This document shows, in pieces, positions 546 to 13,502 of a stretch of DNA of 18,828 bases. The notes under the pieces are model-generated. The model searched no databases. It saw only the letters and a program-made list of their open reading frames with translations, and had not been told where the DNA came from. The DNA is taken from contig JAHFHC010000017.1 of assembly GCA_023247085.1 (NCBI GenBank), forward strand, positions 1 through 18,828, read 5' to 3'. The DNA is from Microcaldota archaeon. Lineage in GTDB: Archaea; Micrarchaeota; Micrarchaeia; Norongarragalinales; UBA8480. Numbering within the stretch: the stretch's first letter is position 1; every line of letters begins with the position of its first letter. The position numbers were made by a program, and so were the translations under genes.

Positions 546-1724
546 ATGAATGACATTAATTGGGCAGAAGAATCCATCAAATTACACAAAAAGTGGAAGG
601 GCAAACTAGCTGTAAAAAGCAAAGCGCCTTTGAAGACGAAATATGACTTGTCAACTGCATATACGCCGGGCGTTGCCCAACCTTGCCTTGAAATTGCAAA
701 AAATAAAGAAGCAGCTTACGAATACACTTGGAAACGCAATAGTGTTGTAGTTTTATCCAATGGAACGCGAGTGCTTGGCCTTGGTAACATCGGTGCACTT
801 GCAGGCTTGCCTGTAATGGAGGGCAAGGCAATTTTGTTCAAAGGATTTGCTAATATTGATGCAGTGCCTTTATGCGTGAATGCTTATACTGTTGACGAAC
901 TAGTTACAATTGGAAAAGCAATTGCGCCGACATTTGGTGGTATTAATTTAGAGGATATACGCGTACCGGATTGTTTTGAAGTTGAAGACCGTTTAATTGC
1001 AGCACTTGATATCCCAGTTTTTCACGATGACCAGCACGGCACAGCAATTGTTGCACTTGCTGCACTTGTCAACGCGCTTAAGGCAACGAATCGGGATATA
1101 AAAACTGCTAGAATACTCTGCAATGGAGTGGGGGCAGCTGGAAGCGCAATTCTCAAAGCAATTTACGCTGCAGGTGCAAGAAACATAATTGCATTTGATT
1201 CTAAATCCACTTTATCAAAGAGCAGGCCAGAACTAAAAGAAACTTACAAAGAAAAATTACTTCCACTTATACAAGAATTCGACGGATCTTTTGAAGCGGG
1301 GTTTGTAAACGCTGATGTTTTTATTGGCACTTCAAAACCAAGCATTGTAACAAAGCAAATGATTTCCACAATGGCAAAAGACTCAATTGTAATTGCGTTA
1401 TCTAATCCCGTTCCAGAAATAATGCCAGAAGAAGCAATTACAGGTGGCGCAAAAATAGTATGCACGGGCAGAAGCGATTATCCAAATCAAGTTAATAACG
1501 TGCTAGCATTTCCCGGCGTGTTTCGTGGTGCCCTGGATTCAAAAGCAAAGAAAATAACTGATGGGATGAAACTTGCAGCTGCAAATGCACTTGCAAGTAT
1601 AGTAAGTGATGAAGAAATTGCATCTGGAATAGTTGTGCCTTCGCCTTTTGACAAAAGTGTGTCAAAAACAATAGCTAAGGCAGTTGCGCGACAAGCCAAA
1701 AAGGAAAAAGTTACACGAAATTAA
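546..1724 (+). CDS. Malic enzyme (NAD(P)-dependent, decarboxylating)
   Basis: 392 residues, the usual length of the short bacterial/archaeal malic enzymes that lack the phosphotransacetylase tail. It converts malate to pyruvate and CO2 with reduction of NAD(P)+ in the cytoplasm. Visible signatures: AYTPGV with the catalytic Tyr (about residue 39), [19 protein letters not shown] with the catalytic Lys (about 94), NLEDI (metal-binding Glu/Asp, 136-137), FHDDQHGTA (metal-binding Asp near 161) and the dinucleotide-binding GVGAAGSA (194-201), with an Asp at the end of the next strand that would favour NAD+ (inference). The ATG at 546 is supported by a GGTGA site. The gene is downstream of lactate dehydrogenase and converges with the IPP isomerase gene, the stop codons being only 4 nt apart. 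Nothing appears truncated. Confidence 0.95.
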
Positions 1725-1728
1725 GCAG

Positions 1729-2742
1729 CTAATTAGTCAGCATCTTTGCTTTTTTCAATGCGGTTAAGTCTTTTGAGCGCGTGAGAAACATCGCTATTTT
1801 TAGTTCGTTTTCCCATTTTTCAATTTCTTTTTTCACGCCTTCGGAACCGTCGGTGTTTTGTGCTTTTAGAAAAGGTGAAGCTGCGCCGGCAAGAGTTGCG
1901 CCTAATCGAATTGCTTTAGCAACGTGTAAACCATTTCTAACTCCGCCGCTTGCAATAAGTGGAATTTTCACTGCTGCTTCTTTTAATGCCGTGACCGTTG
2001 GTACCCCCCAGTTCCAATATAGATTACCAGCTTGTGCGTCTTTGCGTTGAATTTCAATAGCTGCCCATGAAGTTCCGCCTGTGCCGCTTATGTCAATAGC
2101 AGCTACGCCTGCTTGTTCGAGCTCTTTGCAAACTTCTGCGTTTATTCCAGCTCCAACTTCTTTTGCAATAATTGGAATACCTAGTTTACTGCAAGTTTTT
2201 TCAATTGCCTTTAATACGCCACGCCAATCAGAGTCACCTTCAGGCTGAATTATTTCTTGCAATGGATTTAAGTGAACACAAAGCGCATCTGCCTCTATAT
2301 CTGAAACCATTTTTTCGATTTTTTCAAACGAATATTTAGTTAATTGGTACCCGCCAATGTTACCGCATAAAAAAACGTTGGGAGCAACATCTTTTACTTT
2401 AAATGTTTTTGTTAATTCGGGTTTTTCAATCATTGCGCGCTGTGAACCGACACCCATTACTATGTTCTTTTTTTCACACGCAATTGCAATATCCTTGTTG
2501 ATTTTTTCAACGGTTTCGTGCCCGCCAGTCATTGAAAGTATAAAAAATGGTAGTGAAAATTTTCTCCCAAGAAATTTTACTTCGGTGTTTATTTCAGAGA
2601 AGTTCATTTCTGGTAATGCATAGTGCAAGAAGTTTATGTCGTCGAACCCCGTTGGTGTTGTATGCTGCACGTTTTTTTCCAATACGATCTTAACGTGTTG
2701 TACTTTCCTTAAACTTGTCGGGTCATTGGAATCATCTGGCAT
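1729..2742 (-). CDS. fni: Type II isopentenyl-diphosphate isomerase (FMN-dependent)
   Basis: 337 residues, normal for the family. It interconverts isopentenyl and dimethylallyl diphosphate, using FMN and a reductant, and so closes the mevalonate pathway. Visible features: an N-terminal GFDDINFLHYALPE, FILSMTGG, GSQRAM (about 99-104), HLNPLQEIIQPEGD (157-170, with the conserved Gln and Glu implicated in isomerisation and metal binding), KEVGAG, DISGTGGTSW and the C-terminal flavin phosphate-binding SGGVRNGLHVAKAIRLGA. It is unrelated to the Nudix-type isomerase. It is the last gene of the reductase-kinase-kinase-isomerase operon, 40 nt after phosphomevalonate kinase, and has its own GTGAT ribosome binding site 6 nt ahead of the ATG. 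Confidence 0.96.
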   Translation of the reverse strand: MPDDSNDPTSLRKVQHVKIVLEKNVQHTTPTGFDDINFLHYALPEMNFSEINTEVKFLGRKFSLPFFILSMTGGHETVEKINKDIAIACEKKNIVMGVGSQRAMIEKPELTKTFKVKDVAPNVFLCGNIGGYQLTKYSFEKIEKMVSDIEADALCVHLNPLQEIIQPEGDSDWRGVLKAIEKTCSKLGIPIIAKEVGAGINAEVCKELEQAGVAAIDISGTGGTSWAAIEIQRKDAQAGNLYWNWGVPTVTALKEAAVKIPLIASGGVRNGLHVAKAIRLGATLAGAASPFLKAQNTDGSEGVKKEIEKWENELKIAMFLTRSKDLTALKKAKMLTN

Positions 2743-2748
2743 TTTTTC

Positions 2749-2753
2749 ATCAC
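2749..2753 (-). promoter_or_regulatory. Ribosome binding site of IPP isomerase gene
   Basis: Read on the minus strand the bases are GTGAT, with 6 nt to the ATG at 2742, matching the 16S rRNA tail. The 40-nt gap after the kinase gene therefore has room for independent translation initiation, unlike the tighter junctions further upstream in this operon. Confidence 0.6.
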
Positions 2754-2782
2754 TGTTTTTTTTATGTTAATAGTAATTTAAT

Positions 2783-3916
2783 TCAAGGCCGTTTTAAAAC
2801 ACTTGTTTCTACTTTAAACCCCGTATTATCAATTGAAATGTCAAGCAATTCTAATCCGCTTTTTGACCAAAATGATTTTAGTTTAAATGCATCGGTTTGA
2901 GATAAGCAAAGCCCCGCAATTGAGTCCCCGCCACCCGCGCCAGGTAAGCTGGCTGTAAATGCACCGTGTTTTTTTGATTCTTCAATAAGTTGAGTCATTT
3001 CATTTGATTCAATTTCAATCCCACTTTTTTCGCCTAGAGTTTTTAATATCCCGCGAGCGGAGTCAAACCATTTTTCGAACTCCGCGAGTTTTTCTTCACT
3101 GCGCTGCGCTTGGAGAATTTCAAGGCACTTAATCGCTTTTTGATTGTATTCGTTTAATTCCGAAATCATTTTTGTATATTCGGCTTTATTTTTTTCTTTA
3201 AATTCTTTTACTTTTGCAATCATTTGTGTTGTGCTTGTACTGTTGTTTGGAATATTCGCTACAACCGCGTAAAAAAACGAAGGTAAGTTGATTGGCGTAA
3301 TTGAGTAATCCCACTTTGAACCAATTGCTTGTGATAAGCTCATTTTAATGAGTTCTGGCGAGTAACGCGAATATCGAATAGAACCATAAGTGCTACTTGC
3401 CACGTCAAACCCACTCCCTGCTTTTCCTTGAGACGTACAATGCGAGTATTGCGCTATTTTGTGTAGCGCTTCAATTTCTTTTTTGTTGATTAAGTCGATT
3501 CCATGAAGCGAGAGCACTGCGCCTACAGTTGCAACTGTAACTGCTGCACTTGAGCCTAACCCGCTTTTTGCCGCATCTATGCTAAACGCTGCATCGCTTT
3601 TTGTTTTAACACTTACGCCGTGGAGTTTGACGCCTCTTTGTTCCAAATAGTTTAAAGCGAATTGCACTGCATCTCTAATGAAAGTTGCTTTTTTTTGTTC
3701 TGTTTCATCCTTTAAAACAATTTTATTATTTTTATAAACCCCTTTGCAGTCAATGTCAAGTTGGTTATTTTTTAATTCAATATGTGGAAAAGGCAATGCA
3801 GTTGCTTCAGCGTAAACGCGTTTGTCTATGCTCGTGACAAAACCAATGTTGTTGGGTTCGATAATGGAGTAACCGCCCATCCACAGTATTTTTCCAGGTG
3901 CAGAAACGGTTGCCAT
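2783..3916 (-). CDS. Phosphomevalonate kinase (GHMP family)
   Basis: 377 residues. It phosphorylates mevalonate 5-phosphate to mevalonate 5-diphosphate with ATP, the committed step of the classical mevalonate route. Visible: SAPGK near the N-terminus with WMGGYSIIE (the kinase type with GGY instead of GEH), the ATP loop SGLGSSAA (118-125), the strongly diagnostic HCTSQGKAGSGFDVAS followed by TYGSIRY (159-182), and the C-terminal GHMP motif SLPGAGGGDS. The QGK-GSGFD-GS pattern separates it from mevalonate kinase and from diphosphomevalonate decarboxylase. The ATG lies 2 nt after the stop of the mevalonate kinase gene, indicating translational coupling. Most archaea lack this enzyme and use a dehydratase or alternative decarboxylase route, Sulfolobales being the usual exception, so its presence here is notable. 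Family assignment is firm; the exact substrate is inferred from motifs and context. Confidence 0.9.
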   Translation of the reverse strand: MATVSAPGKILWMGGYSIIEPNNIGFVTSIDKRVYAEATALPFPHIELKNNQLDIDCKGVYKNNKIVLKDETEQKKATFIRDAVQFALNYLEQRGVKLHGVSVKTKSDAAFSIDAAKSGLGSSAAVTVATVGAVLSLHGIDLINKKEIEALHKIAQYSHCTSQGKAGSGFDVASSTYGSIRYSRYSPELIKMSLSQAIGSKWDYSITPINLPSFFYAVVANIPNNSTSTTQMIAKVKEFKEKNKAEYTKMISELNEYNQKAIKCLEILQAQRSEEKLAEFEKWFDSARGILKTLGEKSGIEIESNEMTQLIEESKKHGAFTASLPGAGGGDSIAGLCLSQTDAFKLKSFWSKSGLELLDISIDNTGFKVETSVLKRP

Positions 3917-3918
3917 GT

Positions 3919-4944
3919 TTATTGCATTGCCCCTTTGGTTGGTTTTGCTTCAAAGGCGTTGAATCTATTTTTTTTTAATTCTTCGATTAGTTTTGTCGTA
4001 TTGTTTTTATTGACAAGTGCAATTACTGCTCCTCCGTTTCCCCCTGCTCCAGTTAATTTTGCGCCGTAAGCGTTGTTTTGCAATGCGATTTCTTTCGCTT
4101 TTTCAATTTCGTTACTGCTTGCACCAATGCTTTTTAACAATTCGTGATTTTCATTCATTGCCTTGCCAAGAGCGTCAGGATTTCCATTTGTTTTTAATTC
4201 GCTTACTATTTTTTGAAATATTTTTCTAAATGGCTTAAGCTTTTGTTTATCGTTGTCAGTTAATTCAGTTATCTGTTTAATGGTTCCGTCATTTTTTAAA
4301 AATTCTAAATGCTCTGCAACAGTTCTAACCACTTCGCCAGTTAAGCTTCGTTTGCCTCCTCTTGAAGAGTCAATAACTATGAGTGTTGTGTCTTGTGGTA
4401 ATTTGACATCGACATGCTGGAAATCCCATTTAGCGTTTTCTCCTGCTTTTTGTGTTTTAGTCAATTGTGTTGGTCCAAACAACACGGTCATTGCATCTAT
4501 TCCGCTTGGTGCGCCTCCATGTGCGCTTGTGTCAACGAATTGCACGTCTTGAAATAATTCTTCTCTAGTTGGTGTAACTTTCATATGTTTGTACAGCGCA
4601 ATTGCAAGTGCAGCTGCGACACTTGAACTTGCGCCCATTCCTTTTGGTACATTTGACTCAAGTTCAATAACTGTTTTTTTTCTTGGTTTCAGTCCTTTTT
4701 GTATAAAGCGTTTTAACAAGTCACAAAATACTGGCCAAGTTATTTCTCCGCTTTTTACGTTTCCAGTTGCGTCGAGAGAAATTAATTTGCCGTTTTGTTT
4801 CATTTCAAAACCCGGTTCGGCGTTTGTTTCGCTTAATTTAACGGTGTTAAATGGTTCTATGCTAATTGCAAGTGCTTGGCAACCGTAGACAACTGCATGT
4901 TCGCCGGTTAAGATTACTTTGCACGGTGCTTTTACGTCTATCAC
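3919..4944 (-). CDS. mvk: Mevalonate kinase (GHMP family)
   Basis: 341 residues. It phosphorylates mevalonate at C5 with ATP. GHMP motif 1 reads KAPCKVILTGEHAVVYG: the GEHAVVYG part is classic mevalonate kinase, but Cys8 replaces the usual Gly of APGK. Motif 2 is PKGMGASSSVA (about 100-110). HGGAPSGID (142-150) carries the catalytic Asp, and motif 3 is LTGAGGNGGAV (298-307). The start is a GTG: the reductase stop TAA is followed by one AAA codon and then this GTG, in the same frame, and no ATG occurs nearby. GGCGA, one mismatch from a consensus binding site, lies 8 nt upstream inside the reductase gene. Second gene of the operon, tightly coupled on both sides. Confidence 0.92.
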   Translation of the reverse strand: MIDVKAPCKVILTGEHAVVYGCQALAISIEPFNTVKLSETNAEPGFEMKQNGKLISLDATGNVKSGEITWPVFCDLLKRFIQKGLKPRKKTVIELESNVPKGMGASSSVAAALAIALYKHMKVTPTREELFQDVQFVDTSAHGGAPSGIDAMTVLFGPTQLTKTQKAGENAKWDFQHVDVKLPQDTTLIVIDSSRGGKRSLTGEVVRTVAEHLEFLKNDGTIKQITELTDNDKQKLKPFRKIFQKIVSELKTNGNPDALGKAMNENHELLKSIGASSNEIEKAKEIALQNNAYGAKLTGAGGNGGAVIALVNKNNTTKLIEELKKNRFNAFEAKPTKGAMQ

Positions 4945-4947
4945 TTT

Positions 4948-6333
4948 TTACTTCGCCTTTTCTCTCACTTGTTTTAATGCTTCTTTTGCTGAGTCTACAT
5001 TTACGATTTTTTGCTTTGCTATGATTTCTGCCACTTTTTCAATTTCATCGTTTTCAGCTCCGGCGATTACTGCTATGTTTTTTGCGTGTAGTTTCATGTG
5101 CCCAGTTTGTATTCCAGTTGTGCTTAGTGCTCGTAGCGCTGCGAAGTTCTGTGCAAGGCCGACGCAAGCAACTACTTGTGCTAGTTCTTGTGCTGTTTTT
5201 ATGCCAAGTATTCTTAATGCAATTTGTGCGAGCGGATGAGTTTTAGTTGCGCCTCCGACTAGTCCTAGCGCAAGTGGAAGTTCAATTGTTCCACGTAAGT
5301 TCCCAGTTTTGGTTTTTTCCCATTTTGTAAGCGGCAAATATTTTCCAGTTATTGCCGCGTACGTGTGTGCGCCTGCTTCAATTGCGCGCCAGTCGTTTCC
5401 AGTTGCGATTACAATGGGGTCTATTCCATTCATTATCCCCTTATTATGCGTACATGCGCGGTAAATGTCATGATAGGCAAATAGGTACGCGTCTACAACG
5501 CCATCTACGACTTCTTCACCGATTACGTTTTTATCGTATTCTACGCTTGCACGACTAAGTCGCTTGTCGGCTAAATTTGAAATTATTCTTAAGCGTACTT
5601 TGCCGTTGCTTAGTTTTTCTAAGTCAAGTGCAATTGCTTCAGCCATTGTGTTAATTGTATTTGCGCCCATTGCATCGCGTACATCTACGTCAAAATCTAC
5701 AACTAGCATATTTTTTGTTAATTTCCGACAACGTAATGCTTTTACTCCGCCGCCAAGCGTTATCATTATTGGATTAGTGGCATTTGCTTTTGTGATCAAC
5801 TCAACTTTATGCCCTTCAATTTGGTTCACTGCTTTCGCTACATTTGGCACATTGACGACTTGTACTTGGCCAGTCATAATTGGGTCATCGGAAGATGCGG
5901 TAAACCCCTTTGGAAGCGCTAATTTAGCGGCATTAGTGGCTGCTGCGATAACTGACGGCTCTTCAATTGCCATTGGTACAAGCAAGTCGCGGCCGTTTAT
6001 GCGAAAATTAGTGGCTATTCCAAGCGGAAGCTGGTGAGTCCCAACGACACTTTCTATCATTCTGTCAGCTACATTTACTGGTAATGCGCTTTCCTTAAGC
6101 AATAAGTCGCCTTCTTGACTCGTAATTACCCCTTGTTTTACCAATAACGCTACGCGTTCAGTTGGCTTCAATTTGTAAAGCGAGGAGAATTGAGAGTAGT
6201 CAGTCATTAATTGTTTCACCTGATTTCCTTGCAACTCGCGTGTTTTTTTAATCCCCTGTTCAGACCAAATATGTTCGACAAAGGTCGACAAATGGTTCGT
6301 CAACCGTCTCTTTTTTAAAGCGTTGATCGTCAT
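4948..6333 (-). CDS. mvaA: HMG-CoA reductase, class II
   Basis: 461 residues from the ATG at 6333 (a TTG two codons upstream is possible). It reduces HMG-CoA to mevalonate using NAD(P)H, in the cytoplasm, with no membrane segment. Signatures in order: IESVVG with the catalytic Glu (94), EEPSVIAA (124-131), DAMGANTINTM (220-230), ACTHNKGIMNGI with the catalytic Lys (298), ATGNDWRA with the catalytic Asp (314), GGATKTHP and QTGHMKLHA with the catalytic His (412). The Lys-Asp and Asp-His spacings (16 and 98) agree with the Pseudomonas mevalonii enzyme. This is the bacterial class II form, found in some archaea by transfer, not the class I form typical of most archaea. It is longer than the usual 428 residues because of extra length before the Lys. 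First gene of its operon, divergent from HMG-CoA synthase. Confidence 0.96.
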   Translation of the reverse strand: MTINALKKRRLTNHLSTFVEHIWSEQGIKKTRELQGNQVKQLMTDYSQFSSLYKLKPTERVALLVKQGVITSQEGDLLLKESALPVNVADRMIESVVGTHQLPLGIATNFRINGRDLLVPMAIEEPSVIAAATNAAKLALPKGFTASSDDPIMTGQVQVVNVPNVAKAVNQIEGHKVELITKANATNPIMITLGGGVKALRCRKLTKNMLVVDFDVDVRDAMGANTINTMAEAIALDLEKLSNGKVRLRIISNLADKRLSRASVEYDKNVIGEEVVDGVVDAYLFAYHDIYRACTHNKGIMNGIDPIVIATGNDWRAIEAGAHTYAAITGKYLPLTKWEKTKTGNLRGTIELPLALGLVGGATKTHPLAQIALRILGIKTAQELAQVVACVGLAQNFAALRALSTTGIQTGHMKLHAKNIAVIAGAENDEIEKVAEIIAKQKIVNVDSAKEALKQVREKAK

Positions 6334-6402
6334 AATCAATTTGCAAAATTAAGGGTTTAATTGATAAACTGATTAACCGATAAAAAGAGACTCGCAAATA
6401 AA
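6334..6402. promoter_or_regulatory. Divergent promoter region of the two mevalonate operons
   Basis: Only 69 nt separate the starts of HMG-CoA reductase (-) and HMG-CoA synthase (+), so both arms of the pathway must be transcribed from here. An AT-rich element TTTAATTGATAAAC (6356-6369) could serve as core promoter both ways: on the minus strand it is about 28 nt ahead of the reductase ATG (leaderless mRNA), and on the plus strand about 40 nt ahead of the synthase ATG. GATAAAAAG (6379-6387) is a second plus-strand candidate. Neither gene has a clear ribosome binding site. The exact boxes are a guess; the shared intergenic position is certain. Confidence 0.5.
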
Positions 6403-7530
6403 ATGGCTAAAATAATGAAATCTGACGCGTCCGTTCGCTCTGCAAGTCCAGTCATCAATGCTGGCGTTGGGATTGTAAGTTATGGCTATTTTGTCCCGCG
6501 CTTGCGCATAAAAGTGTCTGATATAGCTGCAACTTGGGGTAAAGACGCTTCAGTTGGTGAAAGCCTTGGTGTCAAAGAAAAGGCAGTTGGCGCTTGGGAT
6601 GAAGATTCATGCACTTTTGCAGTTGAAGCAAGTAGAATGGCGCTTAAAGCAACTGCTGGTGCAAATGGCGGTAGTGGTATTAATCCCCAAGAAATCGGGG
6701 CAATTTACGTGGGAAGCGAAAGCAAGCCTTATGCAGTTAAACCCTCTGCGGCTATTGTTGCTGAAGCAATTCAAGCTACTCCTTCGCTTACTGCTGCAGA
6801 TTTAGAATTTGCCTGTAAGGCAGGTACTGCTGGCATGCAAATGGCAATGGGGCTTGTATCAAGTGGTATGATAAATTATGGCTTGGCAATTGGCTCTGAC
6901 ACTGCTCAAGCGCAACCTGGCGATGCATTGGAATACACTGCAGGCAGTGGAGCAGCTGCGTTTATAATTGGTAAAAAAAATGTAATTGCAACAATTGATG
7001 ACACTTATTCTTTTACAACTGATACGCCTGACTTTTGGCGCCGCCAACACGCGGAGTTCCCGCAACATGCTGGCCGTTTTACAGGCGAACCCGCTTACTT
7101 CAAGCACGTGCAAGGGGCAACACAAGGCATACTAGAAAAAACGGGCACAACGACCAAAGATTACGATTACGTTGTGTTTCATCAACCTAATGGAAAATTT
7201 CCACTGCGAGTAGCAAAGAGCCTTGGGTTCGGCGACGAAGCTGTCAAGCAAGGGTTGATTACGCCATTTATTGGAAATACGTACAGTGCTGCTTCAATGA
7301 TTGGGCTGGTTAGTGTGCTTGACGTTGCAAAACCAGGCGACAAAATTTTGTTATGCTCTTATGGAAGTGGGTCAGGCAGCGATGCGTTTGTGTTAACTGT
7401 TCAAGATGAAATAACAAAACCAAATCGTAGACCAAGTGTAAAATTATTGGATTACATTGCAAAGAACAAAAAGTATGTTGACTACGCTGGCTATGCGAAA
7501 CACAGAAAGAAAATCAAGCACATAGAGTAG
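6403..7530 (+). CDS. Archaeal-type hydroxymethylglutaryl-CoA synthase
   Basis: 375 residues. It condenses acetyl-CoA with acetoacetyl-CoA to HMG-CoA, with a thiolase-type fold. The first about 20 residues look like a dispensable extension before GVGIVSYGYFVPRLRIKVSD, the typical archaeal opening. Catalytic Cys138 lies in LEFACKAGTAGM, and the His in VVFHQPNGKFPLRVAK (260). It also has GVKEKAVGAWDEDS and a C-terminal glycine-rich SYGSGSGSDAF. It is followed by thiolase and the DUF35 protein. In methanogens these three proteins form a complex that channels acetoacetyl-CoA directly, making the unfavourable thiolase reaction run forward; the same is inferred here. The ATG at 6403 is used; a second ATG at 6415 cannot be excluded. 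Confidence 0.96.
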   Translation: MAKIMKSDASVRSASPVINAGVGIVSYGYFVPRLRIKVSDIAATWGKDASVGESLGVKEKAVGAWDEDSCTFAVEASRMALKATAGANGGSGINPQEIGAIYVGSESKPYAVKPSAAIVAEAIQATPSLTAADLEFACKAGTAGMQMAMGLVSSGMINYGLAIGSDTAQAQPGDALEYTAGSGAAAFIIGKKNVIATIDDTYSFTTDTPDFWRRQHAEFPQHAGRFTGEPAYFKHVQGATQGILEKTGTTTKDYDYVVFHQPNGKFPLRVAKSLGFGDEAVKQGLITPFIGNTYSAASMIGLVSVLDVAKPGDKILLCSYGSGSGSDAFVLTVQDEITKPNRRPSVKLLDYIAKNKKYVDYAGYAKHRKKIKHIE

Positions 7531-7602
7531 AAAAAACTCAAAACGAAAAATAAACAAAAAAACAAAAAATAATAATAATTGAGAGAAAGTGAAAAAAATA
7601 AA

Positions 7603-8772
7603 ATGAAAGGCAGAGATGTTTATGTTATTGGGGCAGGAATGTCTAGTTTTGGAGAACACTGGGATTCTTCTTTGCGTGAGTTAATTGTCGACGCGGCAAT
7701 AAAGGCAATTGCAGATTCCAAAATAGAAGGAAAACAATTACAAGCCGTTTATGGTGGCTGCATGGCTTCTGGCTTATTTGCTGGGCAAGAGCACGTTGGT
7801 GCCTTGATTGCCGATTACCTTGGCCTTAACCCCCTTCCTTCAACTCGCCTTGAAGCCGCTTGTGCATCTGGTAGCGTTGCAATGCGCAATGGCATAATGG
7901 CAATTGCATCTGGATTTTACGATGTCGTGGCAGTTGGCGGAGTTGAAAAAATGACTGATGTTTCAACTGAAATGGCTTCAACTACGCTTGGCGGAGCAGG
8001 CGACGAAGAATGGGAATTATTTAACGGGGCAACTTTTCCTGCACTTTATGCATTAATGGCACGTAGGCACATGCTAGAATATGGCACAACTGAAGAACAA
8101 ATGGCAATGGTGGCAGTGAAGAACCACGCTAATGCCGCAAAGAACCGCTATGCGCAATTCCAAAAAGAAATCACAATTGACACTGTTATGAAATCGCAAT
8201 ATGTTGCATCTCCACTTAAACTCTTTGACTGTTCACCATTAACCGACGGTGCAGCAGCAGTTATCCTAGCTTCTGGCGATGTTGCGAAAAAAATCTGTGA
8301 AAAGCCAATTAAACTAATTGCAAGTAGTCAAGCAAGTGATTCACTAGCACTGGCAAATAGAGCTAGTTTTTCAAGTTTACGCGCAACGCAAATCGCTGCA
8401 AAAGAAGCGTTTACACAAGCAGGCATAAAGTCAAAAGATGTTGACGTAGCCGAATTACATGACTGTTTTACAATTGCAGAATTAATGGCAATGGAAGACC
8501 TTGGCTTCTGCGAAAAAGGCAAGAGTGGCAAAATGGTTGAAGCTGGCCAAACGAAAATTGGCAGTGATATCCCCATCAATACTTCGGGAGGGCTAAAAGG
8601 CTGCGGCCACCCTGTTGGAGCAACTGGAGTCAAGCAGATAGTTGAAATCGCATGGCAATTGCGAGGCGAAGCAACTGGACGACAAGTTAAAAACGCGGAA
8701 ATAGGTTTAACTCACAATGTAGGCGGAAGTGGCGCAACTGCAGTTGTGCACTTGTTAAAAAAAGATTTCTAA
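7603..8772 (+). CDS. Acetyl-CoA C-acetyltransferase (archaeal thiolase)
   Basis: 389 residues from the ATG at 7603; an in-frame TTG 24 nt upstream lies in a poor A-rich leader and is less likely. It condenses two acetyl-CoA to acetoacetyl-CoA, the first step of the mevalonate pathway. Nucleophilic Cys87 lies in LEAACASGS, His286 in ELHDCFT, and the C-terminal active-site loop is GGLKGCGHPVGATG (Cys334, His336). The HDCFT form is that of the archaeal/SCP2-like thiolases that work with a DUF35 partner. It lies 72 nt after HMG-CoA synthase and 23 nt before the DUF35 gene. A partial binding site (GTGA, 7589-7592) lies 10 nt upstream of the ATG. Confidence 0.94.
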   Translation: MKGRDVYVIGAGMSSFGEHWDSSLRELIVDAAIKAIADSKIEGKQLQAVYGGCMASGLFAGQEHVGALIADYLGLNPLPSTRLEAACASGSVAMRNGIMAIASGFYDVVAVGGVEKMTDVSTEMASTTLGGAGDEEWELFNGATFPALYALMARRHMLEYGTTEEQMAMVAVKNHANAAKNRYAQFQKEITIDTVMKSQYVASPLKLFDCSPLTDGAAAVILASGDVAKKICEKPIKLIASSQASDSLALANRASFSSLRATQIAAKEAFTQAGIKSKDVDVAELHDCFTIAELMAMEDLGFCEKGKSGKMVEAGQTKIGSDIPINTSGGLKGCGHPVGATGVKQIVEIAWQLRGEATGRQVKNAEIGLTHNVGGSGATAVVHLLKKDF

Positions 8773-8795
8773 AAAAAATTCTAAGCTGATAAAAA

Positions 8796-9194
8796 ATGAC
8801 TGAAGGTATTGCAAGGATTTGGAGAAACCAACGCGACAGGTACAACTTAATTGGAACACACTGTGAAGAGTGCAAAAATGATTTTTTTCCACAACGCAAG
8901 ATTTGTCCTGTTTGCCGGCGTAAAGGTAAATTAAAGGAAAAACAAATGCCTACAACTGGCAAAATCTATTCATTTACGCTAGTTACAGGCGGGCCAGTTG
9001 GATTCGACTATGAAACCCCTTACTATTTGGCAATTGTTGAACTTGACAATAAAGTGAAAATCTTAACGCAAATAGTTGACAGTGACGATGACAAAGTAAA
9101 AATCGGGCAACCAGTTAAAGCCATGTTCAGACGCATCCAAACCCACGGAGAAGAAGGGCTAATTGCATACGGGTACAAGTTCAAAGTAGTTTAG
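8796..9194 (+). CDS. DUF35 zinc-ribbon/OB-fold protein, thiolase-HMGS scaffold
   Basis: 132 residues, the normal size. The N-terminal rubredoxin-like zinc ribbon has Cys23/Cys26 (CEEC) and Cys37/Cys40 (CPVC), followed by a nucleotide/CoA-binding OB-fold domain beginning around GKIYSFTLVTGGPVGFDYETPYY. In archaea such proteins bridge thiolase and HMG-CoA synthase and help form a common CoA-binding site; no catalysis of its own is expected. Position directly after the thiolase gene (23 nt) supports this. The role is inferred from family knowledge and gene order. Confidence 0.92.
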   Translation: MTEGIARIWRNQRDRYNLIGTHCEECKNDFFPQRKICPVCRRKGKLKEKQMPTTGKIYSFTLVTGGPVGFDYETPYYLAIVELDNKVKILTQIVDSDDDKVKIGQPVKAMFRRIQTHGEEGLIAYGYKFKVV

Positions 9195-9195
9195 T

Positions 9196-9204
9196 TATTT
9201 ATAT
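9196..9204 (+). promoter_or_regulatory. TATA box for nucleobase deaminase gene
   Basis: TATTTATAT is centred 28 nt ahead of the ATG at 9228, and the gap holds only T-rich sequence with no ribosome binding site. This is the spacing expected for a leaderless transcript beginning at or next to the ATG. The T-rich run after it (9205-9226) may also end the upstream mevalonate transcript. Confidence 0.6.
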
Positions 9205-9227
9205 TCTTCTTTTGTTTTACTTTTATT

Positions 9228-9698
9228 ATGACTCTCGATTACGATTTTATGCGTTTAGCTATTGATACTGCGCGTAAAGGCGTTACTGCAGGTCAGACTC
9301 CATTTGGAGCTGTGATTACAAAAAATGGTAAAGTAGTTGCCGAAGCGCATAATTCAGTATGGAAAACAACTGACCCTACTGCACATGCTGAAATAAATGC
9401 GATTCGCTTAGCTTGTAAAAAATTAGGTACTATTAACTTAGATGGCTGCGTGATTTACTCCACTACTGAACCTTGTCCCTTGTGTTTTAGTGCAATTCAT
9501 TGGGCTAGGATTTCAAAAATAGTTTATGGCGCGGAAATTGCAGACGCAAAGAAAGCGGGTTTTAATGAACTTATTCTTTCAAACCGCGTCATGAAAAAAT
9601 TGGGTAAAAGCCGCGTTGCGATTAAAGGCAGGGTATTAAAAAAAGAAAATCAAGCCTTGTTTGAATATTGGAAAAAAGTTAATTGGAAGCCGTACTAA
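9228..9698 (+). CDS. guaD: Cytidine/deoxycytidylate deaminase-family enzyme, probably guanine deaminase
   Basis: 156 residues. Zinc-dependent nucleobase deaminase of the CDA superfamily. The active-site TDPTAHAEINAIR has zinc-binding His53 and proton-shuttling Glu55, and EPCPLC has zinc-binding Cys83 and Cys86. The DPTAHAE wording, the AIHWARI segment after PCxxC, DAKKAGFNE and the short tail ending in an aromatic residue after a basic stretch resemble Bacillus guanine deaminase (guanine to xanthine), in which the C-terminus covers the active site. Cytosine deaminase and tRNA adenosine deaminase (TadA) are relatives and cannot be fully excluded, but TadA lacks the DPTAHAE pattern. Own promoter upstream and a probable terminator downstream, so it appears monocistronic. 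Confidence 0.85.
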   Translation: MTLDYDFMRLAIDTARKGVTAGQTPFGAVITKNGKVVAEAHNSVWKTTDPTAHAEINAIRLACKKLGTINLDGCVIYSTTEPCPLCFSAIHWARISKIVYGAEIADAKKAGFNELILSNRVMKKLGKSRVAIKGRVLKKENQALFEYWKKVNWKPY

Positions 9699-9720
9699 GA
9701 AAATTCCTTGCGGTTTTCTT
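9697..9720 (+). terminator. Inverted repeat with T-rich tail after deaminase gene
   Basis: AAGAAAA (9697-9703) and TTTTCTT (9714-9720) can pair around a 10-nt loop, starting inside the TAA stop codon. Runs of T follow at about 9729-9736 and 9741-9749. Archaeal terminators depend mainly on T tracts, so termination between deaminase and the CorA-like gene is likely; the stem is AT-rich and weak. Confidence 0.45.
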
Positions 9721-9777
9721 TCAACTCTTCTTTTTTTCCACTTTTTTTTGATTTAGCGCAATTTTTCCTGCAAAAGC

Positions 9778-9785
9778 TATTTATA
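9778..9785 (+). promoter_or_regulatory. TATA box for CorA-like gene
   Basis: TATTTATA lies about 41 nt ahead of the ATG at 9823. Transcription would begin near 9808, leaving a short leader with a purine-rich GAGAG (9811-9815) as a possible ribosome binding site. Confidence 0.5.
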
Positions 9786-9822
9786 CCCTTCGCGTTTCTT
9801 TAGTACTTAAGAGAGTTTTTTT

Positions 9823-10653
9823 ATGATCCGTACTTTTTCGAGTTTCAATGAGTTTAGCAAGGCAGCGCAAGAGCTTGGCTTAGATATGGACTTGCAAGCC
9901 TTAACTACATTAGACGTGTTGTTTTTTGAATTTTATAAAGAATCTCTAATTTTAAATATTCGCGACTATGGCGAAAACCCAAATAATCTACTTGTACTTA
10001 GCAAAAAAGATAGTTTAGTTTATTCTGAAAAGCCATTCACTGCAAAAGATTTCAAACTATTTAGGTTAACTATGAGCGAACAATTTGGAGAAAGTACAGT
10101 AATTGCCTTCTTGGCTTTAAGGGAAACAATGAATAATTATTCATATCGCTTTGAAAAATTACACGCTGAATTAGATGAAGTTGAAAAAACATTTGATATT
10201 GACAAGCTTGACGAGCTCGGTAAAGCGTTCAGAAAGTTGTCAGATAAACTTGACGATTATGTAGATTTATTATTAAAATTACGAGATAGGAAAGTTCCAC
10301 AAGTAAACACGAAGTTTATTTCCTATGATTATAATTTACTAACAACAAAAGCCCAGCATACCTTAGATCGAACAAAAAATCAAATAAGCCGGATAAGTGG
10401 ACTGCGTTCTGAAATAGAAGTACAGGAAACTCGCAAGTTGAATAAACGAATTGAATACTTGTCTGAAGTTGTGAAAAAATTAACTGCCATTACGGTTATT
10501 TTAATGATTCCGACTTTAGTTGCGGGTCATTTTGGTATGAATGTTAATTTATTACTAGCAAATAGGCCAGATGCTGAACTGATAATAATTGTTGGCACTT
10601 TGGTAATAATGGGTTCAGTCGGCCTTTTCTTCAAGTGGAAAGATTGGATTTAA
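9823..10653 (+). CDS. CorA-like magnesium/divalent cation transporter
   Basis: 276 residues, somewhat short for CorA. The N-terminal alpha/beta part is followed by a long charged helical region (about 100-215), then two transmembrane helices at the extreme C-terminus. The first helix ends in the GMN signature (238-240, in the form HFGMNVN), the selectivity-filter motif of CorA pentameric channels; the second helix is followed by a short basic tail ending KWKDWI. The expected role is passive Mg2+ (or Co2+/Ni2+) uptake across the cytoplasmic membrane. The canonical YGMN is FGMN here. It converges with the Mre11-like gene, overlapping it by 4 nt at the stop codons. Own promoter. Confidence 0.88.
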   Translation: MIRTFSSFNEFSKAAQELGLDMDLQALTTLDVLFFEFYKESLILNIRDYGENPNNLLVLSKKDSLVYSEKPFTAKDFKLFRLTMSEQFGESTVIAFLALRETMNNYSYRFEKLHAELDEVEKTFDIDKLDELGKAFRKLSDKLDDYVDLLLKLRDRKVPQVNTKFISYDYNLLTTKAQHTLDRTKNQISRISGLRSEIEVQETRKLNKRIEYLSEVVKKLTAITVILMIPTLVAGHFGMNVNLLLANRPDAELIIIVGTLVIMGSVGLFFKWKDWI

Positions 10654-11837
10654 CTTTTTTTAACAAGTAACATTGCTTTTTCAATTTCTCCTTCTGCCAA
10701 AAGAGAAAATAACTCTTCATCGTTAACCAATTGTGATTTATTTTTACGTAGTTTTTCTTTCAATACTGCATTTCCTATTTCGGAAACGCTTTTTTCTTCA
10801 GTTTTCAACTTGCGTATCAACTCAATCTTATCTCTTAGATTATCTGCGACTTCAAACTCTTTGTCAATGTAAACCTCTGCATTTGCAAAACCGACTGCAA
10901 TTGCATTAGCATCAATTGCAGACGCATTTAGCCCATCGCTTGCAAGTGAGCCACGCAGCTTTAATTTGACAAGTGGTTTCTTCAAATCTTGACTTACGTC
11001 AGTAATTATTTTAGCGATCGCGCTTTTCACTTGTTCTACCGTTGCGTTTTCAAAAACTAATTCTCGGTAAATGAACGGTCGTGAGTCAATGTAAATAAAT
11101 TCATATGTGCGTGTGATTGTGTCATAGAGCCAAAAGCCTTTTTTTTCCATTTCATTTTTCTTCATTTGCGTGATAACCGCACTTCCTGGAATAAGCAGCG
11201 TATTTTTGCCGAATTTTATATCGCGTTTCCAGTGAATATGGCCATTTACGTATAAGTCAAATCCCTTTGGCAAATCGTCGCATGTCATAAAGATGTCGTT
11301 CATTGGGATAATTTCTTTAATGGTCTGGTGAAACATAAAAATGTTAAAACAATCTGGCAATGGTGCAAAACCAGCTGCTTTGATAACATCTCCGGCATAT
11401 TCTTCTGGAACGCCGGCCATGCCAATAATCGCCACGCGTTCGTTTTCAGCTTCTTTCTTTACAATAACGTGTTTATTGTGACAATTTATCAAAACTCCTG
11501 CGCTATCGAGCACGTCAATTGCGTTTACTAATCCTTTTGTGCGGCGTTCATGTGTTCCTGGAATAGCAATTACGGGCATGTTTGGATACGTTCTATTGTT
11601 TTTTTCAACGCTTATAGTGATTTTTGCAGCGCTTGCAGTTGTTGCTTCACGGTGTGTCTTAAATAATTTTATTGCGTCATTTAGCACTTCTTGCTTTGGT
11701 ACGCGCACATCAAACAAGTCTCCTGCTGCTATAACTACGTCGCTCATTTGCCTGGCTGTTTCAAGTATTTTTGCAGTTTGAGCGAGCGCGTCTTCGCTAT
11801 AGCCAAGGTGATAGTCTGAAGTGATTGCGATTTTCAT
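10650..11837 (-). CDS. mre11: Mre11/SbcD-like DNA repair nuclease
   Basis: 395 residues. Calcineurin-like metallophosphoesterase of the Mre11/SbcD type, which with Rad50 processes DNA double-strand breaks. Metal-binding motifs in order: SDYHLG (Asp8, His10), GDLFD (Asp40), GTHER (95-97 region), HQT (His170) and GHIH (His200, His202). In motif 3 the usual GNHD/E Asn is Thr95. The C-terminal 130 residues fit a capping/dimer-partner region and a charged helical tail. The usual archaeal neighbours rad50, herA and nurA are not present; the gene stands alone and is divergent from a small transporter. A possible promoter is TTTATTAAAACC (minus strand, around 11870-11881). It could alternatively be another archaeal metallophosphoesterase with DNA substrates. 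Confidence 0.85.
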   Translation of the reverse strand: MKIAITSDYHLGYSEDALAQTAKILETARQMSDVVIAAGDLFDVRVPKQEVLNDAIKLFKTHREATTASAAKITISVEKNNRTYPNMPVIAIPGTHERRTKGLVNAIDVLDSAGVLINCHNKHVIVKKEAENERVAIIGMAGVPEEYAGDVIKAAGFAPLPDCFNIFMFHQTIKEIIPMNDIFMTCDDLPKGFDLYVNGHIHWKRDIKFGKNTLLIPGSAVITQMKKNEMEKKGFWLYDTITRTYEFIYIDSRPFIYRELVFENATVEQVKSAIAKIITDVSQDLKKPLVKLKLRGSLASDGLNASAIDANAIAVGFANAEVYIDKEFEVADNLRDKIELIRKLKTEEKSVSEIGNAVLKEKLRKNKSQLVNDEELFSLLAEGEIEKAMLLVKKS

Positions 11838-11926
11838 GTTTTGTATATCTCAAGAAAGAGGAACGCCAAGGTTTTAATAAAACGCGGGCTTTGAATTAAT
11901 GCGCGATTTGGTGTAAAAAAATTGTT
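11838..11926. promoter_or_regulatory. Divergent promoter region, mre11-like gene and EamA-type gene
   Basis: This 89-nt gap holds TTTTAATAAAA (11872-11882), usable in both directions as a core promoter, and TTGAATTAAT (11891-11900), which lies about 31 nt ahead of the plus-strand ATG. GGTG (11910-11913) is a poor, distant candidate ribosome binding site for the plus gene. Confidence 0.4.
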
Positions 11927-12352
11927 ATGAATAGCTGGTTAATACTTGCGTTGGCCGCGATGCTTATATTTTCTATTTCAAATACGTTGCTAAAAGTAGC
12001 AACTGATCAATTTGATATAGCCAAAAGTCTTGCCCCGCTAATACCTGTAGCTGCAATTGCGTTCGTTGTCTTTTTAATCGGCACCATTTACGTATTATTT
12101 GTACAAAAAGCGCCAGTTCCTATTACGCTTCTTGAATACGGTGCAGCAATTGTAATCTTATCGCTTTTAGGAGTTGCATTGTTCTTAGCTTCTCTTAAAA
12201 CTGGTAAAGTAGCGGAAGTAACGGCAATACTCAGTATAAGCACGATTGCAGTTGCCCTTATTTCAATTCATTTTCTAAAAGTAGAGTTCAATGCAAAAGA
12301 AGTAATTGGTATGCTAATGGCAGTTGCAAGCATATTGCTATTCGTGCTCTAG
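11927..12352 (+). CDS. Single-domain EamA-type (DMT superfamily) membrane protein
   Basis: 141 residues, almost entirely hydrophobic, with about five transmembrane helices (roughly 3-22, 35-60, 68-88, 95-115, 118-140). The motif-like segment SNTLLKVA in the first helix and the final helix pair after LKVEFNAKEVIGM (compare the LGE-x-GxxLI pattern of drug/metabolite transporters) point to a half-size EamA domain. Such proteins act as dimers and may export small metabolites; the substrate is unknown. It has no same-strand partner nearby: it is divergent from the mre11-like gene and followed after 136 nt by a regulator with its own promoter. Confidence 0.75.
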   Translation: MNSWLILALAAMLIFSISNTLLKVATDQFDIAKSLAPLIPVAAIAFVVFLIGTIYVLFVQKAPVPITLLEYGAAIVILSLLGVALFLASLKTGKVAEVTAILSISTIAVALISIHFLKVEFNAKEVIGMLMAVASILLFVL

Positions 12353-12428
12353 TTTCTTTATTTGATTATAGTTCTTCACAGACCTAGATGCCGTAAGTGA
12401 ACGAACGCGAGTTATCTTTTATTACATA

Positions 12429-12447
12429 ACAAAGCCCTAACCTTTGT
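12429..12447. repeat. Inverted repeat upstream of Lrp-like gene, candidate operator
   Basis: ACAAAG (12429-12434) and CTTTGT (12442-12447) form a perfect 6-bp inverted repeat with a 7-nt spacer. It ends a few bases upstream of the TATA element of the downstream double-Lrp gene, where regulators of this family often bind. It could be an autoregulatory operator; a chance occurrence is possible given its short length. Confidence 0.35.
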
Positions 12448-12455
12448 ACGAATAG

Positions 12456-12467
12456 ATAAATTTATTA
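12456..12467 (+). promoter_or_regulatory. TATA box for Lrp-like regulator gene
   Basis: ATAAATTTATTA is centred about 27 nt ahead of the ATG at 12489, with no ribosome binding site between, the arrangement of a leaderless archaeal mRNA. The rest of the 136-nt gap after the EamA-type gene (12353-12428) shows no gene. Confidence 0.6.
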
Positions 12468-12488
12468 ACTATTTTTTCTATTTGTATA

Positions 12489-13502
12489 ATGATCATAATG
12501 GAGCTTCGTGACCTGGATAATAAGGATCGTTTGTTGTTATTTGAACTAGATATGGGTTGTCGCCAAACTTATTCTCAGCTATCGCGCAAAATTGGGCTTA
12601 GTAAGCAAAGTATAGAATATCGCATTCGTAGTTTGCTTGACAAGGGAGTTATCAAGGGGTTTTATGCTCCGCTTGACGTGTCTAAACTTGGCTATATGTG
12701 CTGTAGGGTTTTTGTTCAATTTTATGGGGTTAGCCCGCCTAAACAACTTGAAATCGTTAACTACTTATTATCAATGAAGGAAGTTGGCTGGGTAATTTCA
12801 GCTGACGGATCTTGGGATTTAATCTTTATTGTTTGGGCTCAAAATGTTCAAGAATTGTCAGAAATAGTTGACAAAATTTCGTATAAATATGGTTCACTAA
12901 TTAAGAAAAAAACAGTGTCAATAGCAACCAAAATGCATCACCTTCAAGCTAAATTTTTACTCCTCGAGCCTCAAGAAGGTAAAACTTTTGTAATGGAAAG
13001 CGGAGTAACGCCTCCAGTGGATTTAGATGAGCTTGACTATAAGATTTTGTCACTAGTTGCGCTTGACGCGCGTATGCCGTTGATTACAATGGCGAATAAA
13101 CTAAAGACTTCTTATAAAGTGGTTGGCTATAGGTTAAAGCGCCTTGAGAAAAAAGGGATTATTTTATGTTATCGTGCTGAAATAAATTACAATGCGCTTA
13201 AATACACGCATTACAAAGTTTTTCTCACTTTGCATAATAATTCAAAAGAACGAGAAGAAGAATTATTGGAATTTTTGCGTAATCGCCCAAATATAATCTA
13301 CGTTACAAAGGCATTGAACATCGCTGATTTAGAATTTGAATGTATTGTTTCAACTAGTTCAGAATTTTACGCGCTAATAAGGGATTTACGCGCCAAATTT
13401 TTTGATATAATTCAAGACCATTCAACAGTTATGCTAACTGAAACTCATCAAATAAACTACTTGCCAGTTGAAAGCAAAGCGCTTTTTCCAGTAAAAACTT
13501 AG
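12489..13502 (+). CDS. Tandem (double-domain) Lrp/AsnC-type transcription regulator
   Basis: 337 residues, twice the usual Lrp length. Unit 1 has a winged helix-turn-helix (about 5-60: LSRKIGLSKQSIEYRIRSLL, then KGVIKGFYAPLDVSKLGY) and an alpha/beta partner domain to about 150. Unit 2 repeats this plan with a diverged helix-turn-helix (about 178-232: MANKLKTSYKVVGYRLKRL, then KGIILCYRAEINYNAL) and a second alpha/beta domain to the C-terminus. One chain thus carries the architecture of an Lrp dimer. No enzyme domain is fused. A second ATG at 12498 is possible, but the TATA spacing fits 12489. The ligand and targets are unknown; the inverted repeat just upstream suggests autoregulation (inference). 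It converges with the DHH phosphoesterase gene (16 nt apart). Confidence 0.88.
   Translation: MIIMELRDLDNKDRLLLFELDMGCRQTYSQLSRKIGLSKQSIEYRIRSLLDKGVIKGFYAPLDVSKLGYMCCRVFVQFYGVSPPKQLEIVNYLLSMKEVGWVISADGSWDLIFIVWAQNVQELSEIVDKISYKYGSLIKKKTVSIATKMHHLQAKFLLLEPQEGKTFVMESGVTPPVDLDELDYKILSLVALDARMPLITMANKLKTSYKVVGYRLKRLEKKGIILCYRAEINYNALKYTHYKVFLTLHNNSKEREEELLEFLRNRPNIIYVTKALNIADLEFECIVSTSSEFYALIRDLRAKFFDIIQDHSTVMLTETHQINYLPVESKALFPVKT

Follow-up and report, generated by a model that had tools for sequence, protein, structure and literature searches.

The locus studied here raised the question of how IPP is made by an archaeon whose mevalonate gene cluster contains no decarboxylase gene. The window, i.e. 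the whole stretch of DNA analysed (18,828 nucleotides, 18.8 kb), is one entire contig, C17, from the genome of a tiny uncultured Micrarchaeota archaeon of the order Norongarragalinales (G000; 892,562 bases, 36 contigs, completeness 92%, contamination 0.26%). The original prediction was right that no decarboxylase, AcnX or IPK is encoded in the window; since this is a single contig out of 36, the absence of a gene from it says little.

The evidence points, with a probability of about 0.93, to the cluster being the chief locus for a complete mevalonate pathway of the classical (eukaryote) type, whose diphosphomevalonate decarboxylase (MDD) gene is located on another contig, C18, and was most likely moved there from between the mevalonate kinase (MVK) and phosphomevalonate kinase (PMK) genes. 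The pathway would be complete and of a known type, and the cluster itself is ordinary within the order.

Gene content of the divergent cluster

Seven open reading frames in two divergent arms were confirmed at the predicted coordinates, and profile scans agreed with the identities assigned to them in the original prediction, with PMK and MVK scoring below the curated cut-offs. The right arm, on the plus strand, begins with an archaeal-type HMGS gene (6403..7530; TIGR00748, 522 bits, cut-off 353), followed by a thiolase gene for an archaeal-type acetyl-CoA acetyltransferase (7579..8772; NF004720, 583 bits, cut-off 420; NF053570, 561 bits, cut-off 600) and the gene for DUF35, the scaffold protein of the thiolase/HMGS complex (8796..9194; Pfam PF01796 and PF12172). 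The best solved relatives of HMGS and DUF35 are chains I and E of 6esq, respectively. The three proteins would lead to HMG-CoA, probably via an archaeal-type thiolase/HMGS/DUF35 complex. A cytidine/adenosine deaminase-like gene (9228-9698) lies 33 nt after the DUF35 gene on the same strand, and no homologue of it was seen beside the mevalonate cluster in the relatives.

The left arm, on the minus strand, encodes class II HMG-CoA reductase (HMGR, 4948..6333; bacterial-type profile TIGR00532, 401 bits, cut-off 260), MVK (3919..4944), PMK (2783..3916) and the type 2 isopentenyl-diphosphate isomerase IDI2/fni (1729..2742; TIGR02151, 399 bits, cut-off 281). MVK scored just under the TIGR00549 cut-off (159.8 versus 163 bits), its best hits being solved mevalonate kinases. 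PMK was the best class for the neighbouring protein, with all scores below the cut-offs (178/377 for TIGR01219, 117/166 for TIGR01220 and 155/500 for NF040957). The substrate specificity of these two kinases was therefore inferred from their context and co-occurrence with other genes. The products of the left arm are predicted to provide mevalonate, two phosphorylations and the isomerisation of the pathway product.

The arms are separated by a divergent intergenic region (6334..6402), presumably containing both promoters, and conserved in the sister species G002 with an 8-nt indel. Its predicted length of 69 nt holds for an HMGR start at ATG 6333, a codon conserved in G002; the alternative upstream start, TTG 6339, showed no conservation there.

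The decarboxylase gene on a second contig

The original prediction had left open how IPP is made and proposed a genome-wide search for decarboxylase, IPK and dehydratase genes. When profiles were run against all 36 contigs, a single MDD gene was found on contig C18 (14953-16035, minus strand), and AcnX, UbiD-type decarboxylase, IPK and Dxr were all absent. The encoded protein scored 324.7 bits with TIGR01240 (cut-off 171.35) and far below the cut-offs with other decarboxylase-type models (140/475 for PMD, 48/440 for M3K, 30 bits for MBD). It aligned over most of its length to solved MDDs and kept the motifs KYWGKRD, SGSA.RS and YTFDAGPNA, which identifies it as MDD rather than PMD, M3K or MBD. 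It would catalyse the ATP-dependent decarboxylation of diphosphomevalonate to IPP.

The GHMP kinase domain search of the genome yielded only three proteins, namely MVK, PMK and MDD. By established pathway logic, this trio and the lack of genes for alternative routes in the genome indicate a complete classical mevalonate pathway, MVK and PMK (the latter below the curated cut-offs) being encoded in the window and MDD on C18. GGGPS, through which the pathway product would be used for ether lipids, is also present in G000, its gene being split across two contig ends. A novel or incomplete pathway, lacking the decarboxylation step or relying on an undescribed enzyme, would agree with a window devoid of decarboxylase, but a full-length MDD scoring above the curated cut-off is encoded in the same genome and also in both other members of genus g1, G002 and the congener G001, which makes such a pathway very improbable. 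C18 is unlikely to be a contaminant, since the sister species has the same MDD gene with the same neighbours.

The position of MDD was compared among 29 Norongarragalinales genomes (MAGs, 61-92% complete), as the original prediction had also proposed; gene content, gene order and orthology were read directly from the assemblies. The HMGS and HMGR genes are adjacent and divergent in 23 of the 24 genomes with HMGR, the exception being G009, in which they lie on separate short contigs. Thiolase and DUF35 genes follow HMGS wherever the contig is long enough. The cluster had been regarded as unusual for archaea, a view to be abandoned if its gene order proved widespread; at the level of the order it is indeed widespread, the same divergent core being nearly universal, usually with MDD inside. 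PMK and MDD co-occur in the same 16 of the 29 genomes, among them G011 with a disrupted MDD frame and G018 with PMK cut by a contig end. MDD adjoins PMK or lies within about 1.2 kb of it in 14/14 genomes other than G000 and G002, the only two in which it is found outside the operon. The full order DUF35-THL-HMGS / HMGR-MVK-MDD-PMK-IDI2 was seen in G007, and the segment HMGR-MVK-MDD-PMK in G001, on a 4.5-kb contig ending just beyond PMK.

In the window, MVK and PMK are separated by a junction of only 2 nt (3917..3918, minus strand), identical to that in G002 (89% identity of PMK between the two species). The MVK tail NAFEAKPTKGA runs into PMK in both genomes and into MDD in G001. In their present location the MDD genes of G000 (C18) and G002 (C75) have a common neighbourhood with an HTH-type regulator beside the gene, and in the MDD tree they fall inside the clade of the order. 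Most simply and most probably, the MDD gene already present in the operon was relocated, rather than lost and regained, in the common ancestor of G000 and G002, i.e. before the two species split; a fresh acquisition of MDD or an assembly error in both genomes would be less likely.

The operon without MDD could be an artefact if MDD truly resided between MVK and PMK, as it does in G001, and both G000 and G002 are fragmented MAGs. Both species, however, show the 2-nt junction and have MDD in the same alternative neighbourhood, and only one MDD was found in G000, so there is little chance that the decarboxylase gene disappeared from this locus through assembly error, a possibility raised in the original prediction.

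On C18 (14953-17957) the relocated gene lies downstream of the HTH-type regulator and of a large ORF resembling a surface-protein gene, an arrangement conserved on C75 of G002. Outside the order, MDD and a UbiD-type AMPD homologue occur together on L092, L094 and L096, which are contigs from one uncultured archaeon and from one MAG each of Micrarchaeota and Hodarchaeota. The MDD of YP3.bin60, a MAG labelled as Thermoplasmata, groups with those of Micrarchaeota, through either mis-binning or transfer.

The archaea-type route consists of AcnX, a UbiD-type AMPD and IPK, the haloarchaea-type route of PMD and IPK and the Thermoplasma-type route of M3K and MBD, and the MEP route has Dxr. In G000 the first was excluded by the absence of AcnX, AMPD and IPK from the genome, the second by the lack of IPK and a decarboxylase far under the PMD cut-off, the third, as judged by M3K and MBD, by a GHMP set limited to MVK, PMK and MDD, and the MEP route by the absence of Dxr, which is present in G004, G010 and G026. 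Three IPK candidates were rejected, as none matched the IPK model: on inspection of the sequences, the one on C22 reads as UMP kinase and the match on C24 falls in FtsZ, and the protein on C23 is most likely aspartokinase, judging by domain score and length. That an archaea-type or haloarchaea-type pathway has its modules on other contigs is scarcely credible: genus g2 of the same family does have AcnX, UbiD and IPK at the corresponding locus, but in G000, G001 and G002 AcnX and UbiD are absent and IPK never reached the cut-off, the full trio is confined to exactly five other genomes of the order and the decarboxylase fits MDD, not PMD.

Three routes to IPP within the order

Besides the 16 genomes with PMK and MDD, AcnX, UbiD-type AMPD and IPK were found all together in exactly five of the 29 (G003, G005, G008, G025 and G027) and Dxr in exactly three (G004, G010 and G026), all without HMGR and HMGS. 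The three routes are mutually exclusive across the 29 assemblies, and all of them occur inside the window's own family (classical in g1, archaea-type in g2, MEP in g3). Single absences from MAGs are weak evidence; the joint presence or absence of whole gene sets is stronger. Random placement would give such non-overlap of the route sets with a probability of about 0.01 to 0.02 per comparison, shared ancestry being ignored. No complete route was found in five genomes, four of them 61-82% complete (G006, G021, G024 and G028) and the fifth, G009, 90% complete. HMGR, HMGS and an MVK-like gene are present in G009, whose locus L238 is on C26, and MDD, PMK, AcnX, UbiD, IPK and Dxr were all not found in this genome.

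In genus g2 (G003 and G005) the archaea-type set, comprising MVK, UbiX, AMPD, AcnX large and small subunits and IPK, forms one cluster on the divergent DUF35-THL-HMGS/HMGR core (1365-12914 of locus L076 in G005; L077 in G003). UbiX, AMPD, AcnX large and AcnX small lie beside MVK, where G016 has MDD-PMK-IDI2, and the divergent core is unchanged. The MEP genes are also clustered (L235, L236 and L237 in G010, G026 and G004, respectively), in the order Dxs-Dxr-IspG-IspD-IspF in G010 and G026 and Dxr-IspG-IspD in G004; GGGPS is kept in these genomes, and Dxr of G004 and G026 are 46% identical. In the three MEP genomes, archaeal ether lipids appear to be supplied by the bacterial MEP pathway.

On the EF-2 tree at least five route changes were needed when 'no route found' was left out as a state. 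With this state included there were 10 changes, a value as low being obtained in 91 of 200 shuffles, so the route labels are not significantly clustered and no direction of route change is claimed. Judging by gene content and order, it is fairly probable that the IPP module was repeatedly exchanged among three biochemically distinct routes that never co-occur in the order and the family, the first two being swapped beside the conserved DUF35-thiolase-HMGS/HMGR core and the mevalonate pathway having been lost altogether in the MEP genus g3. One core locus kept across the order while the IPP-forming module is exchanged would constitute a natural series, in which, if the exchange is real, the ancestral mevalonate route and route replacement become testable among close relatives.

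Comparison with known mevalonate systems

The bacterial mevalonate operon of Bacillota has the order mvaK1-mvaD-mvaK2-fni. It resembles the MVK-MDD-PMK-IDI2 order of G007, seen also in the Carnobacterium, Enterococcus and Levilactobacillus loci. Unlike the Bacillota operons, the locus of the order has an archaeal HMGS/thiolase/DUF35 arm attached, and in the tree its MDD sequences fall outside Bacillota, on a DPANN/Asgard/CPR side. The archaeal thiolase/HMGS/DUF35 complex (PDB 6esq, 6et9) is the best solved match for HMGS and DUF35, a likeness seen in sequence.

Complete mevalonate pathways via mvaD have already been reported for Norongarragalinales (PMC12892359), and a eukaryote-type mevalonate pathway for several DPANN MAGs (PMC11052028). 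The same enzymes are encoded in the genomes studied here, with the differences that MDD of G000 and G002 is outside the operon and that the gene order and the AcnX-type members of the order are not described in the relevant passages of these reports. AcnX is not mentioned in the main text of PMC12892359, whose supplements may contain a prior description of the three-route pattern. In the same report Norongarragalinales are said to 'also' have a complete MEP pathway; in the genomes examined here, by contrast, MEP replaces the mevalonate pathway and does not stand alongside it.
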